NCBI RefSeq assembly: GCF_005576615.1
Contig: NZ_CP040330.1
Coordinates: 620,001-684,000, forward strand
Origin: Natrinema versiforme
Lineage (GTDB): Archaea; Halobacteriota; Halobacteria; Halobacteriales; Natrialbaceae
Length of the DNA: 64,000 nt
Reading direction: 5' to 3'
Each line of letters begins with the position of its first letter. Positions within the stretch are counted from its first letter, which is position 1. Position numbers and translations under genes: made by a program. Below the pieces are notes generated by a model. It was not told the origin of the DNA. It did not search any database and saw only the letters and a list, made by a program, of their open reading frames with translations. Shown one piece after another: positions 1 through 8,041 of this stretch.

Positions 1-580
1 CGAGGTAGATGTCGGCGACGTTTCGCAGCGGTCGCAACGCGTCATCGCGGACGCTCGTCGGATCGACGGTCAGCACGACGGACTTGTCCCGCATGGTCAC
101 CTGCCGCAGGAACGTGACGAGCCGCTGGATGACGTGGTCCTCGTCGCCCTCGTTGATGACCGCCTCGTAGTTCGGATCGTTCCGCAGGAGCGACGACAGC
201 GTGTCCACGAAGACGACGTCTGCCTTCCAGAGCGTCTCCGCGCCCGCGAGCCGACCCAGCAGTTGTCGTTCCTGCCCTTCGTTGCGGGTGTCGACGTTCG
301 CGTGCAAGAATAGCAACTGCTCGTCCAACAGCAGGTCGACCACGTCGTAGGATAACGAATTCATCTGCTGGACGAACTCCCACGATTTCAGCTCCGTCGA
401 GACGTACGTGACGTAGGCGTCCTCGGTCGCCATCCCGTAGGAAAAGCGCTGGGAGAGCGCGCTCTTGCCCGCGCCGTCTTGGCCTTCGATGAGGACGATA
501 CTCCCTGCTGGGATTCCGCCGCCGATGGCGTTGTTCACGCGGTCGCGATCGGTCAGTCCGATGGAGTGATACGCTGTCAT
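1..580 (-). CDS. arlH: Archaellum motor regulatory ATPase ArlH (FlaH), C-terminus cut by window edge
   Basis: ArlH is the RecA/KaiC-like cytoplasmic ATP-binding protein that works with the motor ATPase ArlI at the base of the archaellum. The visible 193 residues hold a P-loop, GQDGAGKS, at residues 33-40 and a Walker B strand, VVFVDT, at about 122-127. The ATG at 580 overlaps the arlG stop as ATGA, so the two genes are translationally coupled in the minus-strand order arlCE-arlF-arlG-arlH. The gene runs off the left edge; arlI and arlJ are expected beyond it but are not visible. Identification is firm from motifs and operon context. Confidence 0.93.
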   Translation of the reverse strand, partial: MTAYHSIGLTDRDRVNNAIGGGIPAGSIVLIEGQDGAGKSALSQRFSYGMATEDAYVTYVSTELKSWEFVQQMNSLSYDVVDLLLDEQLLFLHANVDTRNEGQERQLLGRLAGAETLWKADVVFVDTLSSLLRNDPNYEAVINEGDEDHVIQRLVTFLRQVTMRDKSVVLTVDPTSVRDDALRPLRNVADIYL

Positions 581-1041
581 GAGACGTAGAATTCGAACAC
601 CTCTTCCGCACCGTTGACGGTCACCTGCACCCGGTGTTCCGCGCCCGTCGCGAGCGACTGGTCGATCTCGAGTTCGGCGACTGTGCCCCGTCGCCACGGC
701 CCGCCGTCGTCTTGCACCGTGACCGTCATCGCCTCGTCCGAGATGTACGAGCCGTTGACCAGCACGTCGAGACCGGTTCCGTCGTCGGCAAGGGTCTTCT
801 GGCCGGTGTTTTTCACGAGGAGCGTGACGTTCTCCGCGCCGTCCGAGTTGTACACCGCATCGCTCCCCGGATCGCTGATGATCTCGATGTCGGTATCGAT
901 CTTGTCCGTCACGTCGGCACTCTGGGTATCGACCGAGTTGCTGAGTTCGTTGACGTTGGTCACCAGCGTCCCGGCGACGCCGGCCGCGACCAACATCGCG
1001 GCGATGAACAGGATCAGCGTCGAGACGGAATCGCCCGCCAT
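577..1041 (-). CDS. arlG: Archaellum protein ArlG (FlaG)
   Basis: A 154-residue protein with one N-terminal hydrophobic helix (about residues 7-27) and a beta-rich extracytoplasmic domain, the layout of ArlG, a stator/filament-like subunit that binds ArlF outside the membrane. I chose the ATG at 1041 because it sits directly before the hydrophobic helix and is preceded by GGTGGTGCGG, and because a longer start would run deep into arlF. It ends in a 4-base overlap with arlH and starts 2 bases after the arlF stop. Family assignment rests on size, topology and position between arlF and arlH. Confidence 0.88.
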   Translation of the reverse strand: MAGDSVSTLILFIAAMLVAAGVAGTLVTNVNELSNSVDTQSADVTDKIDTDIEIISDPGSDAVYNSDGAENVTLLVKNTGQKTLADDGTGLDVLVNGSYISDEAMTVTVQDDGGPWRRGTVAELEIDQSLATGAEHRVQVTVNGAEEVFEFYVS

Positions 1042-1043
1042 AG

Positions 1044-1475
1044 TTACCGCACCACCGTCTCGGCGATTCCGTGTTCGGTCACGAGCTTTACCCTGTTCGG
1101 GTCGGTCGAGACCGTGACGTTCAGTGTCTCTCCGGGCTGCCACAGTTCGCGGTCGGCGACTCCATCGACGCTCGTCTCGTAGGTGCTCCGGCTTTGATAA
1201 TCGCCGTCGATCAAGAGATCCGTCTCGGCGACCGAAAGCGTCGTCGAGCCGGTGTTATTCACGTGCATGATGAACTCCTCGTTCCCGCTCTGGTTGTAGC
1301 CCTGCGAGTCGATCTGGATCGCCGTGTTTCGCATCTCGAGGCGTCGATCGTCGCGGTCGTCGATCGCCGTTGACCGATTTTCGTGGGCCGTCTGGAACAC
1401 CGGGTAGGCGATCCCCGCGGCGACGAGGACGCCCACGACGATGATCGCCGTCGCCCCGCTGGTACTGAATCCCAC
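1044..1475 (-). CDS. arlF: Archaellum protein ArlF (FlaF)
   Basis: A 143-residue protein with an N-terminal membrane helix (about residues 8-27) and a beta-sandwich-like C-terminal part. ArlF binds the S-layer and anchors the archaellum stator. The best start is a GTG at 1475, with GGTGAT and GGAGG upstream on the minus strand. It lies 38 bases after arlCE and 2 bases before arlG, so it belongs to the same operon. A conserved-looking NNTGSTTLS segment resembles the ribbon repeat seen in ArlG (KNTGQKTL), consistent with the two being related. Confidence 0.87.
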   Translation of the reverse strand: MGFSTSGATAIIVVGVLVAAGIAYPVFQTAHENRSTAIDDRDDRRLEMRNTAIQIDSQGYNQSGNEEFIMHVNNTGSTTLSVAETDLLIDGDYQSRSTYETSVDGVADRELWQPGETLNVTVSTDPNRVKLVTEHGIAETVVR

Positions 1476-1513: not shown

Positions 1514-2608
1514 CTACGTCCCCGTCTCGGCGTCCGGTTCGATCTCCCGTTTGGTCTTGTGGATCTCCTGGAGCTTCATGATGTACGTGTAGCTGTCGGC
1601 GTGATCCTCGGCGGTCAGTTCGTCCGGCGTCGTCCCCGGATCGACGTGAATGTCGAGGTCCGGACCGCTGAGCATCGCCTCGAGGTGGTCCCTGACCTCC
1701 TCGTCGATCCAGCCGATCTCGCTGTAGTACGAAATCGCACGCAGCGTCGCGGCCGGGCCGGCCGTCCGGACCAGTTCGGTCAGCCACTCGAGGACGATGA
1801 TATCTGTCGCGTACGTGTCCGCGAGCGTCTCGAGGGTGACGTCGGAGCCACCCTCGTCGTTCCCATCGTCTTCGTCCGCGTCGTCCGCGTCCGACTCGTC
1901 GACGCTCTCGGTGGCTTGCACTTCGACGGTGGTGTCGTCGGCGTCGCTGTCCTCGTCGAACGCGATCGTCTCACCACTGCCGTCACCGTCGGACTGGGCC
2001 GCCGCGTCCTCGATGACGTCTTTGAGGTCGTCGAAGGACACCGTCTCCTCCGCGCTCTTCGTACCGCCGTCCGCGACGCCGACGCCGCTCCGGGTCGGCT
2101 CCTCGGGCGGCGACTCGTCTTCGCCGAAGACGCCGAATCCGTTCCGTTCCTCGCCGGCTCCCGTAAACGGGTTCACGTCGTCGGTCAACATGTCGTAGAC
2201 CCCGAGCAGCTGGCGGACCGTGTCGTTCATCTCCTCGACGCGATCCGCGACCTGCTGCTGGGAGTCCTGGACCGTGCCCAACTCCGAACTCTTGTCCTCG
2301 AGTTGCTCCTCGAGTTCGTCGAGCCGGTAGTAGAGATCGTCGAGTTCCTCCTCGTCGGTCGACGAGGCGCCGCGGCCGAACAGTCCGCCGCCACCGCCAC
2401 CGCTGCCGCCCGAATCGGGCTCGGACTCGACGCGTTCGTCACTGTCCGCCCCGTCCGTCGACTCCCTTGTCTGCGCGTCGGCCGCCGTCTCCTCGAACGG
2501 GTCGTCCTGCTGTTGGCGCTGTTGTTCGCGCTCGCGCCCGCGGCGGCCGCCGCTATCGCTGAGGAAGTCTTCGATGAAGTCGCGGAGGGAATCGAGTCCG
2601 AACTCCAT
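1514..2608 (-). CDS. arlCE: Fused archaellum switch protein ArlCE (FlaCE)
   Basis: ArlC/D/E form the cytoplasmic ring around the archaellum motor and, in euryarchaea, receive the chemotaxis switch signal through CheF. This 364-residue protein joins an ArlC-like coiled coil (about residues 88-150, ending near VNPFTG) to a C-terminal ArlD/E domain (about 256-364, with the YYSEIGWI core). A long acidic linker rich in Asp, Glu, Ser and Gly connects them. The first 85 residues are also low complexity, with a glycine run near 68-76. The start at 2608 has GGAGGG just upstream and follows a short reading frame that stops at 2609. Confidence 0.9.
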   Translation of the reverse strand: MEFGLDSLRDFIEDFLSDSGGRRGREREQQRQQQDDPFEETAADAQTRESTDGADSDERVESEPDSGGSGGGGGGLFGRGASSTDEEELDDLYYRLDELEEQLEDKSSELGTVQDSQQQVADRVEEMNDTVRQLLGVYDMLTDDVNPFTGAGEERNGFGVFGEDESPPEEPTRSGVGVADGGTKSAEETVSFDDLKDVIEDAAAQSDGDGSGETIAFDEDSDADDTTVEVQATESVDESDADDADEDDGNDEGGSDVTLETLADTYATDIIVLEWLTELVRTAGPAATLRAISYYSEIGWIDEEVRDHLEAMLSGPDLDIHVDPGTTPDELTAEDHADSYTYIMKLQEIHKTKREIEPDAETGT

Positions 2609-3048: not shown

Positions 3049-3675
3049 ATGTTCGAAAAACTTACAGACGCAGACGAGCGCGGTCAGGTCGGTATCGGTA
3101 CCCTGATCGTGTTCATCGCAATGGTGCTCGTCGCAGCGATCGCAGCGGGCGTACTGATTAACACGGCCGGACTCCTCCAGAGTCAGGCCTCGAGTACGGG
3201 GTCCGACACGCAACAGGAGGTCGCAAACCAGATTTCGGTAGTTGACGCGGTCGGGACTACTGGTACGGGTAGTGTCGACGTTGACGATGATGGTACTGAC
3301 GAAACCGTTGATGTCGTTACCGATCTCAGTATTACAATCAAGAAATCTGCAGGTTCCGAGGAGATCGATCTTACATCGGCAACGATCCAGTATACGAGTG
3401 ATTCGACGGCCAAGACGCTGACTTACGCGACTGCTACTAGTGGTACTGAGTTCGCAACGTCCCTAGAGAGTACGTCTGGGCAGGAAGACGCGCTCGTTAA
3501 CAGCGACGAGCGAGTGTCCGTTCAGCTCGACCTCGCTGCGATCGAATCGAACGGTGCTGGCCTCTTGACCGGCTCCGACGCGACGATCAAGTTTGTCGAC
3601 CAGTCCGGTGCGACATCCGTCTATGGGGTCAGTGTCCCGAACACGTTCGGTGACAAGGACTACGTCATCGTCTAA
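3049..3675 (+). CDS. arlA: Archaellin (flagellin), archaellum filament subunit
   Basis: A 208-residue class III prepilin-type protein. The short charged leader ends DERG at residues 9-12, followed by the processing site and a hydrophobic stretch beginning [19 protein letters not shown], the signature of archaellins cut by the preflagellin peptidase and assembled into the filament. The rest is a Thr/Ser/Asp-rich surface domain. Start at 3049 is fixed by the leader. The central part of the gene is visibly poorer in GC than its neighbours, as often seen in variable filament domains. It is divergent from the arl accessory genes. The symbol is generic; the paralogue number cannot be assigned. Confidence 0.95.
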
Positions 3676-3701: not shown

Positions 3702-4220
3702 ATGGAACGAGAACACCAGTGCGTCGTCGTAACCGCGCTTTGCATACTACTCGTTACGCTCGCGGCCGGACCGCTGGTTCCTGCGATCAACGCCACTGAC
3801 TCCGCTGACGAATCGGTGGAACTCTATACCTCGTTCGCCGGGAATGAAGAGGGTGTTTCTGTCGATAGACAGCTGTTCGTCTCTCCCACACAGGTTCCCG
3901 CTCAAAATATCTCGCTCGAGCAAACGAACACCAACTCGCACCGACTCGAGATCCCCGACGCGCTGGTCTACGTCGAAACCGGTTCGGAACCGGTCGCGGT
4001 GACCTACCGCGTTTCGGTTCCCGAACTGGATTACAGCGAGAACGCGACCAGTAGTATTTCCCCGGGAACAGAACGATCGGTTCCGCTCTCGATTCCCGAC
4101 GGGTCGGTCGGGGATACCGAGAACTCGAGCGTCGAGGCCACAGTAACGGTCACCGCGGAGTCCGACAACATGGCCTTTCCCGTGATCGAAGAAACCGTCG
4201 CCCTCGAGGTGCCCGAATGA
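3702..4220 (+). CDS. Secreted or membrane-anchored protein of unknown function, archaellin-linked
   Basis: A 172-residue protein that starts with a hydrophobic segment (about residues 8-27) followed by an acidic, Ser/Thr/Val-rich region with predicted beta character and several N-glycosylation sequons (for example NIS, NAT, NSS). This looks like an exported protein with an immunoglobulin-like or similar beta domain. It begins 26 bases after archaellin and its stop overlaps the next start as ATGA. I do not recognise the family. The tight packing behind archaellin suggests a role at the cell surface, possibly in archaellum assembly or glycosylation; that is inference from position only. Confidence 0.75.
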   Translation: MEREHQCVVVTALCILLVTLAAGPLVPAINATDSADESVELYTSFAGNEEGVSVDRQLFVSPTQVPAQNISLEQTNTNSHRLEIPDALVYVETGSEPVAVTYRVSVPELDYSENATSSISPGTERSVPLSIPDGSVGDTENSSVEATVTVTAESDNMAFPVIEETVALEVPE

Positions 4221-6253
4221 GTACCGCTCACCGAGTTCGCGAGGAGCTAACTGGTCTCGAGGTCGACCGAACGCTACTCGTTCGGCTACTGTTCGGTGAC
4301 CGAACCGGACTCACCCTCTACCTCGGGGCGCTCGTACTGTTCGCGCTCTACTGGCGCGTCGACATTTTCATCGTCGACACGTTCGCCATCGGGAACGCGC
4401 TCGTCGCCGTTTCGGAGGGCCACCTGCACATCTCGCAGGTCGTCTACGGGCCGGCGGATCCGTCGACACCCGGTATGAACATCGTGGACGGCCGGCTCTA
4501 CGCGCGAAACTACGGCCACGTCGTCTTCGCACTCCCGTTCCTCTGGGGGCTCGAGGCGATCGCGCTCGTCGCCGATGTGCGGATCGCCATCGCGGCGCTG
4601 TGGAGTTTGCTGGTGCTCGCTTTCTGCGTCCAGCTTGGTCACCTGCTCGGACGCGGCCGTCTCGCGACGCTGGCCGGCTGTGCGCTCGCGTTCGGCCTCT
4701 TTCAGGCGAACCTCGCGACGGCGACCGAGCTGCCGCCCCGGCTGTTTCCGCTGCTCGCGCTGCAGGTGAGCACGATGGTCGCGGCCGGATTCGTACCGGT
4801 CGTCCTCTACCGGTTGTTCGAACACGCACACGGTCGACGGGTCGCGACGACGGCCGGGATCACGGGTGTCGTGCTCGTCCCGATCGGGTTCTGGGCGTCC
4901 ATCCCGAAACGTCACGCGCTGACGGCGCTGCTCGCCCTGATCGCGCTGTACGGTTTCTATCGGAGCCGCGCAGCCATCGCGGACGGCGACGAGGGAGTCA
5001 CGTTCCGAGCGCTCTCCTACGCGGCCGTCGGCGGGACGGCGTGGATTCACGCTCCCGAAGCGCTCGCGTTGCTCACCGTGCTCGTCCCCGCGGATCTGTT
5101 GACGGCCCGCTCGAGGGATCCGCGGACCCTCGGACTCATCGGCGGCGTGTTCGCCCTCTCGCTGGTGCCGTTTTTCGCGACGAATACGCTCATCACGGGC
5201 AATCCGGTCAAGCCGCCGCGATTGCTGTCGACCTACACCGGCGGCGACGTGCTGGTCGATACCGTCGGAACGGACGCGGGCGGTGCCGAATCGGGCGGCG
5301 AGGCCGCTACGGGAGACACCGGTGGAACCGCGTCCGGCGATAGCGGCTCGAGCGGTGGCGGTACTGACTCACAATCGAGCGGTGGCGGAACGGGACCGAC
5401 CTCGAGCAGCGGCTCGACTACCGGCCCGACGAGCGTCTTCACGCGACTCGTCGGTGGGGCAGTCGCGATGGTGTCGGCGGGAATCGACGGTGCGCTGAAC
5501 GCGCTGGACGTGTTCGGCGGACTCCTCAACACCGGCGTCGACTCGCTGGACACCGATCGGCTCTCCCACGTTTTTCTCCGGAGCGGGCGCATTCCGGGCG
5601 TCGACTACAGTCAGACCGGCGGTCAGACCGTCGAGCTCACGATCCTCGAGTCCGCGCCGGTTCTGGGGGCGCTCGTCGCGGCCCCCCTCGCGGTCGCCCG
5701 GCACGCGGTGAGTCGCCGCGAGATTCGTCAGCGACTCCGTGACCCGCTCACGCAGACGGACGTCTTCGCCGCCTGCTACGTCTGCCTCTTCAGTCTCCTG
5801 TACCTCTCGCGGCTCCCACTGCACTCGACGATCACGGTTCGATATCTCGCACCCATCGTCCCGTTCCTGCTGTACGGCGTGTTCCGCCTCGAGCCGGTTC
5901 GCCGGGTCGCCGATCGGGAGTGGCGACCGTTCGCGCTGGCGACGTGCGGGTTCACGGCCGTCGGAATCGCGGCCGCGATCGCCGCGTTCAACGCCAACCT
6001 AGCCGTCGGGAGCATCGTGCAGACGCACGCGGTCGTCAATCTCTGCGTCGCCGGCGTCCTCGCGTCGTGGGTCGTCGTCGCGACGCGAACCGATAGGGGA
6101 GACCGCGTCGGGGCGCTCGCGCTCGCACTGGCCGTCGCGGCGATGGCGGTGTTCCTGCTCCTCTCGGGGCTCGAGTACTTCGGCAGCGGCCGACAGTTCG
6201 CGCTTCCGATCGCGGAACTCATCGCGCAATACATTCCGATCAGAAACCCATGA
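4217..6253 (+). CDS. Large polytopic membrane protein, possible GT-C-like enzyme, archaellin-linked
   Basis: A 678-residue protein with roughly 11-13 membrane helices. The first large external loop, around residues 70-105, contains a DGRLYARNYGH segment reminiscent of the donor-site loop of GT-C glycosyltransferases such as PMT/ArnT-like proteins, though I cannot see a decisive Asp/Glu pair. A long Gly/Ser/Thr linker fills about residues 348-410, an unusual low-complexity insert inside a membrane protein. It overlaps its neighbours by ATGA on both sides, so three genes form one coupled unit behind archaellin. A GT-C glycosyltransferase is the leading guess, but it could equally be an uncharacterised archaellum-cluster membrane protein. 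Confidence 0.72.
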   Translation: MSTAHRVREELTGLEVDRTLLVRLLFGDRTGLTLYLGALVLFALYWRVDIFIVDTFAIGNALVAVSEGHLHISQVVYGPADPSTPGMNIVDGRLYARNYGHVVFALPFLWGLEAIALVADVRIAIAALWSLLVLAFCVQLGHLLGRGRLATLAGCALAFGLFQANLATATELPPRLFPLLALQVSTMVAAGFVPVVLYRLFEHAHGRRVATTAGITGVVLVPIGFWASIPKRHALTALLALIALYGFYRSRAAIADGDEGVTFRALSYAAVGGTAWIHAPEALALLTVLVPADLLTARSRDPRTLGLIGGVFALSLVPFFATNTLITGNPVKPPRLLSTYTGGDVLVDTVGTDAGGAESGGEAATGDTGGTASGDSGSSGGGTDSQSSGGGTGPTSSSGSTTGPTSVFTRLVGGAVAMVSAGIDGALNALDVFGGLLNTGVDSLDTDRLSHVFLRSGRIPGVDYSQTGGQTVELTILESAPVLGALVAAPLAVARHAVSRREIRQRLRDPLTQTDVFAACYVCLFSLLYLSRLPLHSTITVRYLAPIVPFLLYGVFRLEPVRRVADREWRPFALATCGFTAVGIAAAIAAFNANLAVGSIVQTHAVVNLCVAGVLASWVVVATRTDRGDRVGALALALAVAAMAVFLLLSGLEYFGSGRQFALPIAELIAQYIPIRNP

Positions 6254-6657
6254 CTGACACACGAGACACCGACACGGACACGGTCCTCGAGCCGGACGAC
6301 CTCTCGCTCGAGGGTGATCACGTTCGCGAACTCGCCGAGAACCAGTACGTAATCAGGGCGGAGACTGACGAACTGAATACGCGTCAGTCGCCCGAGAGCG
6401 ACGCGGCGGACGCACCGACGGAGCCGTCGGTCGACGCTCGAGGCGACGGCGGGACGCTCGCCGATGCGCCCGAGCCCCACGGCGTCGATATCTCGCTGAA
6501 GACCGACGGGGCGGTCGCACACCACCGCGCGACGTCACACGACGTCCGCGAGGTGTTCGTCGATCTCCTGACGTGGTACGCCGGCCAGCTCGACGAGGAC
6601 ATGTCGCCCAGCGAGGCACTGCAGGTGATGCTGGCCGCGTCCGATCTCGAGGTCTGA
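6250..6657 (+). CDS. Acidic soluble protein of unknown function, third gene of archaellin-linked operon
   Basis: A 135-residue, strongly acidic cytoplasmic protein. The N-terminal part (EPDDLSLEGDHVRELAENQYV, split by an acidic linker) looks like a short conserved haloarchaeal domain, and the C-terminal third forms two amphipathic helices (VFVDLLTWYAGQLDEDMSP). No enzyme motif is visible. It starts in an ATGA overlap with the membrane protein upstream, which argues that its product acts with it. Some haloarchaeal annotations call such genes flagella cluster proteins; I cannot verify that here. Confidence 0.72.
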   Translation: MTDTRDTDTDTVLEPDDLSLEGDHVRELAENQYVIRAETDELNTRQSPESDAADAPTEPSVDARGDGGTLADAPEPHGVDISLKTDGAVAHHRATSHDVREVFVDLLTWYAGQLDEDMSPSEALQVMLAASDLEV

Positions 6658-6756: not shown

Positions 6757-7182
6757 ATGAGCAACCCACGTGCGGAGTTTCTGGCGGGCGACCGCCTCGA
6801 GGACGTCGCGCTGTTTCTGGCCGATTCCTACGTCTCCGACGAGCGACTCGAGCGGTTCGGCGACCGGGTCGACGACGGCACGCTGATCGTCGTCGACGGC
6901 GAGCGCGGGCGGGGCGCCTTTCAGGCGGCGACCGGCACCGGCGCGATGGAGTTCGCGAAATCCGCGATGAGCAACGAGGGGGAGATCGACGACGATCTGA
7001 CGGGCGGGCAGTGTCCGGATGCGGACGACGACGAGAGCCACGCGGTCCAGTTCGTCTTCGCGTTCGCCGAAGCGCAAAACGAGGAGGTCGGCGGCATCTA
7101 CGCCGACGGGGATGTCATCCACGCCTACGCCCAGTGTACGTGCGGGACGGCGTTCTCGGATCGGTGGACCGCGGGCGACTGA
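6757..7182 (+). CDS. Conserved haloarchaeal protein (DUF5807-like)
   Basis: A 141-residue soluble protein starting MSNPRAEFLAGDRLEDVALF. It contains an acidic middle, a DDDLTGG-CP segment and a C-terminal YAQCTCG motif, so it has two nearby cysteines that could bind a metal. The overall pattern matches a small haloarchaeal family I remember as DUF5807; function unknown. A T-rich stretch at about 6722-6734 is a plausible promoter, indicating a transcription unit separate from the archaellin cluster. Confidence 0.75.
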   Translation: MSNPRAEFLAGDRLEDVALFLADSYVSDERLERFGDRVDDGTLIVVDGERGRGAFQAATGTGAMEFAKSAMSNEGEIDDDLTGGQCPDADDDESHAVQFVFAFAEAQNEEVGGIYADGDVIHAYAQCTCGTAFSDRWTAGD

Positions 7183-7345
7183 CTCTGCCGTCGCCGCCAC
7201 TGAACGGACGCGTTCGTCTACCACGGGGTTCCGCTCGAGTCCCGGTCTCTCGTTCCGCACTCGAGCACCGATCCACCGGTTCGGTTCCTGACACCGTCAC
7301 CTGTCGGCCGTCTCCTTTTGCTCGAGGACGGCCTATCGAGGGTGA

Positions 7346-8041
7346 ATGAGCTCGACCGGAACCCCGACCGAGACCGGCCGCGGGTTCGGTCTCTCGAGCC
7401 GCGAGGCGCGCGTGATCGGCGGCGCGAGCGTCCTGATGGCGCTCAACGTGGTGGTGATGTACGGCCTCGTGAGCACGCCGCTCTCGAACGTCAACGACTA
7501 CCTGTTTCGGTTCCCGATCATCGGTGCGATCGCCTACGGCGCAGCGATCATGGCCGGCCAGTTGGTCGCCGAGCGGGGCGTCGAGGGCGGCGATACGGGC
7601 ATCGCGTTCGTCGGGATGGTGATTCTCCAGTTGGCGTTCGGAATCTTCGGGGCCGGGGTGCTCCGGTTTGCGCCCCGCGAATCTCAGTTGCCGATTCTCG
7701 CCGTCACCGCGGTCGTGGTCGCCGTGTTGACCGCCGTCATCGCGGCCTACGTCTACGCGCGCTCGAAGTCGTTCGAGCACTGGGGTTCCTACGCCAACTA
7801 CGCGTTTATCGGCGGTCTCGTCGCGATTCTGCTCGGGACGTTTTACGCGCCGGTGTTGCTCCTCGGGTTCGTCCTCGTCTTTCTGGGATTCCTGCTCCGA
7901 CTGGGCTGGGAGATCTGGAAGGTCCGCGACCAGCGGACCGAGTCGGTCGCGCTCCAGACGATCGGCGTCTACATCGCCGTCGCCGGCGTCTTCGTTCACG
8001 TCTTGCAACTCGTCATGCGATACTTCGCGTCTCGGCAGTGA
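7346..8041 (+). CDS. Polytopic membrane protein, function unknown
   Basis: A 231-residue protein with about seven hydrophobic helices separated by short loops and with a 20-residue soluble N-terminus. No catalytic or transport motif is recognised. It stands alone between convergent and codirectional neighbours. The start ATG at 7346 gives the only length in which the hydrophilic N-terminus leads directly into helix one. Confidence 0.7.
   Translation: MSSTGTPTETGRGFGLSSREARVIGGASVLMALNVVVMYGLVSTPLSNVNDYLFRFPIIGAIAYGAAIMAGQLVAERGVEGGDTGIAFVGMVILQLAFGIFGAGVLRFAPRESQLPILAVTAVVVAVLTAVIAAYVYARSKSFEHWGSYANYAFIGGLVAILLGTFYAPVLLLGFVLVFLGFLLRLGWEIWKVRDQRTESVALQTIGVYIAVAGVFVHVLQLVMRYFASRQ

Follow-up and report, generated by a model that had tools for sequence, protein, structure and literature searches.

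The locus and its genes

In the archaellum gene region of Natrinema versiforme, an archaellin gene is followed at once by three genes that a first-pass annotation took for a single module dedicated to the archaellum, with a role in assembly, glycosylation or surface attachment. The question that this locus raises is whether the three genes belong together and what they do to the filament. The window analysed here is a stretch of 64,000 nucleotides, to which the following coordinates refer:

577..1143, minus strand: archaellin-like stator-type protein (PF01917, 82.9 bits)
1044..1475, minus strand: archaellin-like stator-type protein (PF01917, 42.7 bits)
1514..2608, minus strand: ArlC/ArlE fusion, heading the divergent archaellum genes (PF05377 and PF04659)
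3049..3675, plus strand: archaellin, the proposed substrate, 208 aa (PF01917, 112 bits; no N-X-S/T sequon)
3702..4220, plus strand: P1, cassette gene 1, small protein, secreted or N-terminally anchored, 172 aa (hydrophobic N-terminus, four sequons)
4217..4220, plus strand: ATGA overlap of the P1 stop and the P2 start, read in the sequence
4217..6253, plus strand: P2, cassette gene 2, polytopic membrane protein, probable remote GT-C, 678 aa
4376..4378, plus strand: Asp54 codon of P2, candidate for catalysis where the first outer loop starts (invariant, n=94)
5240..5440, plus strand: Gly/Ser/Thr-rich stretch of P2, about residues 342-408 (length varies within the family)
6250..6657, plus strand: P3 (DUF7500), a gene resident at archaellin loci and outside the cassette (PF24332, 83.1 bits, cut-off 27)
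6757..7182, plus strand: DUF5807 protein, a resident neighbour by which the empty site of relatives is recognised (PF19123, 177 bits)

ORF positions and translations bore out the anatomy first described, that is, a gap of 26 bases between the archaellin stop and the P1 start, ATGA overlaps joining P1 to P2 and P2 to P3, and a secreted, a polytopic and an acidic protein in this order (P3 has 135 aa, 24% Asp+Glu and a pI of 4.05). The DGRLYARNYGH loop and the Gly/Ser/Thr-rich stretch of P2 were also present as claimed, and so were the N-glycosylation sequons of P1, which lie at residues 30, 69, 114 and 141. The two stator-type genes of the minus strand (1044..1475 and 577..1143) presumably encode ArlF/ArlG, judging from their position. 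After P3, positions 6757-8041 of the window hold the DUF5807 gene and a membrane protein gene with weak Bax1-I/DUF202 similarity, an arrangement also found in another Natrinema genome.

A two-gene cassette next to a resident gene

Comparison with other loci showed that the three genes are not one unit. P1 adjoins P2 in 93 of the 100 P2 loci, a count made with a P1 profile built from the same loci, and in 86 of these 93 the P1 gene has ATGA or GTGA at its end, so that their pairing goes beyond chance. P3 was found among the 100 P2 loci in archaellin contexts only (28/28), and it occurs likewise where P2 is missing (47 of 48 genomes, a mixed set). In Natrinema without P2 the order is archaellin-P3-DUF5807, while in the window it is archaellin-P1-P2-P3-DUF5807; similarly, family f4 genomes without P2 display archaellin-P3-CheY-CheC and the carriers of this family archaellin-P3-P1-P2-CheY-CheC. 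Since the empty sites of both Natrinema and f4 keep archaellin-P3, P1 and P2 form a two-gene cassette, for which at least two insertion sites exist, and P3 is a resident. The dedicated three-gene archaellum module has thus to be abandoned, because P3 is separable from P1-P2 and adjoins archaellin without it, and because P1-P2 is more often found behind type IV pilins. P3 itself is a member of DUF7500 (PF24332) and is independent of P1-P2. In Natrinema zhouii, P2 and P3 are separated by an additional gene (L005, 8583-9326); from its RR motif and a stretch resembling a lipobox, its product is a probable Tat lipoprotein.

P2 and P1 proteins

The first-pass annotation had also pointed to a GT-C-like loop in P2 and to glycosylation as one possible role, and a GT-C-like membrane protein of the glycosylation type found support in profile searches. 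Among 55 P2 members, 36 matched NF047440 (LA_3751/LA_3752 family putative glycosyltransferase; best 6e-10), 17 matched PMT_2 (PF13231; best 1.8e-5) and two matched Glyco_transf_22, while 0/20 Mrp antiporters, taken as a control for hydrophobicity, matched PMT_2. The P2 of the window departs from the NF047440 and PMT_2 profiles that its family resembles, being an insert-bearing protein of 678 aa whose NCBIfam match to NF047440 is weak and far below the cut-off (E 0.0036, score 16.2, cut-off 200); its Pfam search yielded no match, PMT_2 included. The residues invariant among 94 P2 sequences include D54, R232, H233, D293, R455, R542 and Q602. Asp54 occupies the beginning of the first outer loop, which we assume to be the position of the catalytic acidic residue of GT-C enzymes. 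The DGRLYARNYGH loop belongs to a conserved region in which G92, R97 and N98 are conserved at 90% or more, and the Gly/Ser/Thr stretch is variable across the family. Family-averaged hydropathy presented about a dozen peaks, with a basic N-terminus and a long loop (residues 46-106) following the first peak, as in a multi-spanning GT-C protein with a long first outer loop. On the basis of these profiles and conserved residues, we believe that P2 is very probably a remote member of the GT-C glycosyltransferase superfamily.

Structural comparison added little. AlphaFold models made from three-sequence alignments (window, L004 and L005) were too poor to be used, with pLDDT values of 32 and 34 for P2 and P1 (31.9 for P2), and the comparison of P2 with solved structures gave no meaningful match, the best ones being of low complexity. 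For P1, a weak fimbrial match (E 0.036) was not used, and family searches disclosed no accepted or curated family.

A GT-C ancestry would also be compatible with a P2 that has lost catalysis and acts with P1 as an assembly or quality-control factor for the subunit, as reported for TfpY of Pseudomonas. The coupling of P1-P2 to subunit genes and the presence of an extracytoplasmic partner, P1, in 93/100 loci would fit such a role. However, P1-P2 is present in some congeners and absent from others with intact archaellin loci, so that an assembly role would be dispensable, and the invariant polar residues D54, R232, H233 and D293 favour catalysis; we consider this explanation quite improbable.

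Distribution and linkage to filament genes

The two named relatives are Natrinema species (P2 identity 81% and 78%), and Natrinema zhouii YPL30 and N. salsiterrestre S1CR25-10 are P2 carriers. P2 relatives were found in 62 of 293 Halobacteriales genomes (E 0.001), G044 and G272, with weak partial matches, being left out of the P2 set; within family f4, a profile search detected P2 in 84 of 146 genomes. Since archaellins are present in at least 215 of the 293 genomes and P2 in 62, the P1-P2 pair is accessory. Among the matches listed, 16 of the 62 P2 genomes had no archaellin match. P1-P2 relatives were also sought in viral contigs, plasmids and phages, where none was found.

The link to the archaellum that had been proposed holds in part. 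It is supported by 28 of the 102 P2 places, in which an archaellin precedes P2 on the same strand at a distance of 0.58-1.83 kb, while more loci lie behind pilins and some P2 genomes had no archaellin match. With a filament gene at most four genes upstream of P2 on the same strand as the definition, 67 of the 100 loci were linked, 28 to an archaellin and 39 to a type IV pilin, which rules out a P1-P2 family restricted to the archaellum. As for the remaining loci, four had a filament gene elsewhere in the stretch, 25 had none and four, in which no P2 gene was called, were dropped from the locus analysis. Pilin_N matches number roughly 2-15 per genome among the matches listed; the probability that P2 adjoins a filament gene by chance is therefore low, a few per cent at most by our own estimate.

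The two contexts are also separated in the P2 tree (FastTree, which gave a long-branch warning), where archaellin-linked copies required two label changes (shuffled mean 24.3) and pilin-linked copies eleven (shuffled mean 31.0). Homologues are mostly away from archaellum genes when the family is taken as a whole, an outcome that the first-pass annotation had named as counting against its reading, but not in the subclade of the window's P2, in which 28 of 31 rows are archaellin-linked. Many genomes hold one archaellin-linked and one pilin-linked P2.

These data bear on the possibility that P2 is a GT-C enzyme acting on a lipid-linked glycan or a surface polysaccharide (e.g. the dolichol-linked glycan or the S-layer), its adjacency to filament genes reflecting co-expression of surface genes. 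Some P2 genes do sit with STT3-like, Bac_transf and NTP-transferase genes, and no filament gene is near 25 of the 100 loci (STT3-like genes occur in five of these 25 and sugar-transferase genes in six). Against it, 67/100 loci follow filament subunit genes directly, and a general enzyme would not need separate archaellin- and pilin-linked subclades, often both in one genome. For these reasons we regard a general surface-glycan enzyme as unlikely and retain a filament-linked one.

Neighbours of the 39 pilin-linked P2 loci included DUF2298 (31), GT2 (24) and GtrA (18); these sugar-related genes, and the STT3-like and sugar-transferase genes mentioned above, also speak for a glycosyltransferase. 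A common set made up of DUF7344, a phosphoribosyltransferase gene, a GT2-GtrA pair and DUF2298 was observed at pilin-linked P1-P2 loci (L088, L110-L128 and others). In G201 (C9:18697-19257), three stop codons interrupt an archaellin-like frame, which is probably a pseudogene.

N-glycosylation sequons of filament subunits

The archaellins beside P2 (41 sequences from 27 loci, one of the 28 archaellin-linked loci lacking a usable archaellin) carry a mean of 0.34 sequons and 28 of them carry none, whereas 89 control archaellins, from genomes without an archaellin-linked P2, carry a mean of 3.34 with only eight at zero. By shuffling, 89 sequons were expected beside P2 and 14 were observed; the controls had 296 against 198 expected. 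Pilins presented the same pattern, with a mean of 0.54 sequons in those upstream of P2 (46 of 68 at zero) and of 2.76 in those of genomes without P2 (three of 33 at zero). When all the extracted genomes were considered, a mean of one sequon or less was found in 24 of 28 with P2 adjacent, in 18 of 25 with P2 elsewhere and in four of 49 without P2. No archaellin was extracted from G011, G167, G262, G259, G238, G274, G321, G357 and G358, which were left out of this combined count; with a looser archaellin pattern, G259 gave values of 1 and 0 sequons and G238 of 0 and 0. The same sites are altered in sister genomes, as in VNMT of G198 and VDIT of L041. Ser+Thr made up 22.6% of the archaellins of carriers and 19.8% of those of controls, with no clear difference in pilins (21.4% vs 20.8%).

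N-glycosylation itself is probably intact in the carriers, because P1 is rich in sequons (184 observed vs 54 expected) and AglB is above cut-off in 28/28 of them. Like P2, AglB/STT3 belongs to the polytopic surface glycosylation enzymes of haloarchaea and is found in the same genomes; unlike it, P2 matches no STT3 profile (STT3 was absent from the nine Pfam families matched across the 55 members, 0/55), and the sequons of the filaments are lost rather than used. A depletion confined to the P2 locus was ruled out, since the carriers' pilins away from P2 are equally poor (0.58 vs 0.68, p 0.85). Sequon depletion is a genome-level effect.

Within genera, the contrasts were in the predicted direction in six of seven, with one tie (sign test p 0.03). 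Genus means differed as well (18 vs 19 genera, p 1.6e-5, with some genera in both sets and genera not independent), and the Mann-Whitney p values of the sequon contrasts assume independence of sequences, genomes or genera. Archaellin and pilin trees provided three supported independent pairs, too few for the tree test to reach significance. An additional sample of f4 genomes, picked before their archaellins were seen, gave a mixed result. As predicted, g41 genomes lacking P2 had 4-5 sequons, but three sequons each remain in the archaellins next to P2 in G371, G376 and G377, and the seven P2-adjacent archaellins of this sample had 14 sequons against 12 expected. In genus g80, 3-5 sequons were kept in four of five genomes. 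A strict loss of sequons is ruled out by these three genomes and g80. Exceptions of the opposite kind are G067, G051 and G036, with one archaellin sequon at most and no P2, and G106, a genome without P2 whose pilins have none.

It could be argued, then, that the depletion is unrelated to P2, in lineages that lost filament N-glycosylation in some other way and carry P1-P2 by chance, and this would be compatible with any reading of P2. The genome-wide nature of the effect, the exceptions in both directions and the small number of independent contrasts are all in line with it. In contrast, six within-genus contrasts were as predicted and none was opposite, archaellins and pilins are both depleted, and sequons abound in the P1 proteins of these genomes. 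We judge a coincidence rather unlikely.

Two further observations concern archaellins. Those of G067 and G051 (L169 and L176) lack any sequon and no P2 was found in these genomes, which may represent another route of losing N-glycosylation or an enzyme not seen here. Those of L254-L257 (G280, G162, G201 and G233) are unusually long, with 442-462 aa beyond the cleavage motif (over twice the normal length), and carry 0-1 sequons.

A proposed filament glycosylation pair

The reading that we propose, and to which we give an even chance, is that P1-P2 encodes a filament-dedicated GT-C glycosyltransferase (P2) and its small extracytoplasmic partner (P1), glycosylating archaellins or pilins, probably on Ser/Thr. 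In this scheme, P2 would take a sugar in its outer cavity from a polyprenyl-phosphate carrier, with Asp54 as the putative catalytic residue, and would pass it on to Ser/Thr residues of the archaellin, pilin-linked paralogues serving the pilin. Transfer would precede filament assembly, at a stage when the subunit is a protein of the membrane, and P1 may hold or position the subunit; action on a membrane-held subunit with P1 as the outer partner is suggested by analogy. The extra modification would make the filament N-glycans dispensable, and the N-sequons would then decay. That the filament subunit is the substrate seems to us slightly better than an even bet; the O-linkage, for which the loss of Asn sites speaks, falls slightly short of one.

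The nearest working model appears to be TfpW of Pseudomonas aeruginosa group IV, which is described as an arabinosyltransferase of the GT-C type that acts upon the type IV pilin associated with it (PMC11841053). TfpW is likewise a GT-C type membrane enzyme in the accessory set of a pilin gene, where subunit modification is proposed, and the same set holds a small accessory protein (TfpX; here P1). A comparable placement behind a filament subunit gene, within four genes, is that of 67/100 P2 loci. P2 differs in being archaeal, in apparently serving archaellins as well as pilins and in having a secreted partner, and the two are likened by description and gene context. In the literature searched, mainly titles and the beginnings of abstracts, we found no description of the P2 family, its archaellin-linked form, the P1 partner or the sequon pattern. 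GT-C modification of pilins is known in bacteria; within these limits, the family, the archaellin-linked form, P1 and the sequon pattern are apparently new.

Filament glycans are described as governing bundling and motility (PMC11239922) and perhaps virus attachment (PMC7347861). The window presents a sequon-free archaellin with a dedicated GT-C candidate at its locus, and the question becomes testable, since it involves a single gene pair and a single substrate, with clear-cut presence or absence among congeners. We suggest tentatively, with the odds somewhat against it, that P1-P2 supplies the O-glycosylation enzyme still missing for archaeal surface filaments. The pair would be mobile and matched to its substrate, with one version for archaellins and another for pilins, and its acquisition would switch the filaments of haloarchaea from AglB-dependent N- to O-glycosylation. 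If this is true, the switch would be visible as the loss of N-sequons in the subunits while the secreted P1 keeps its own.
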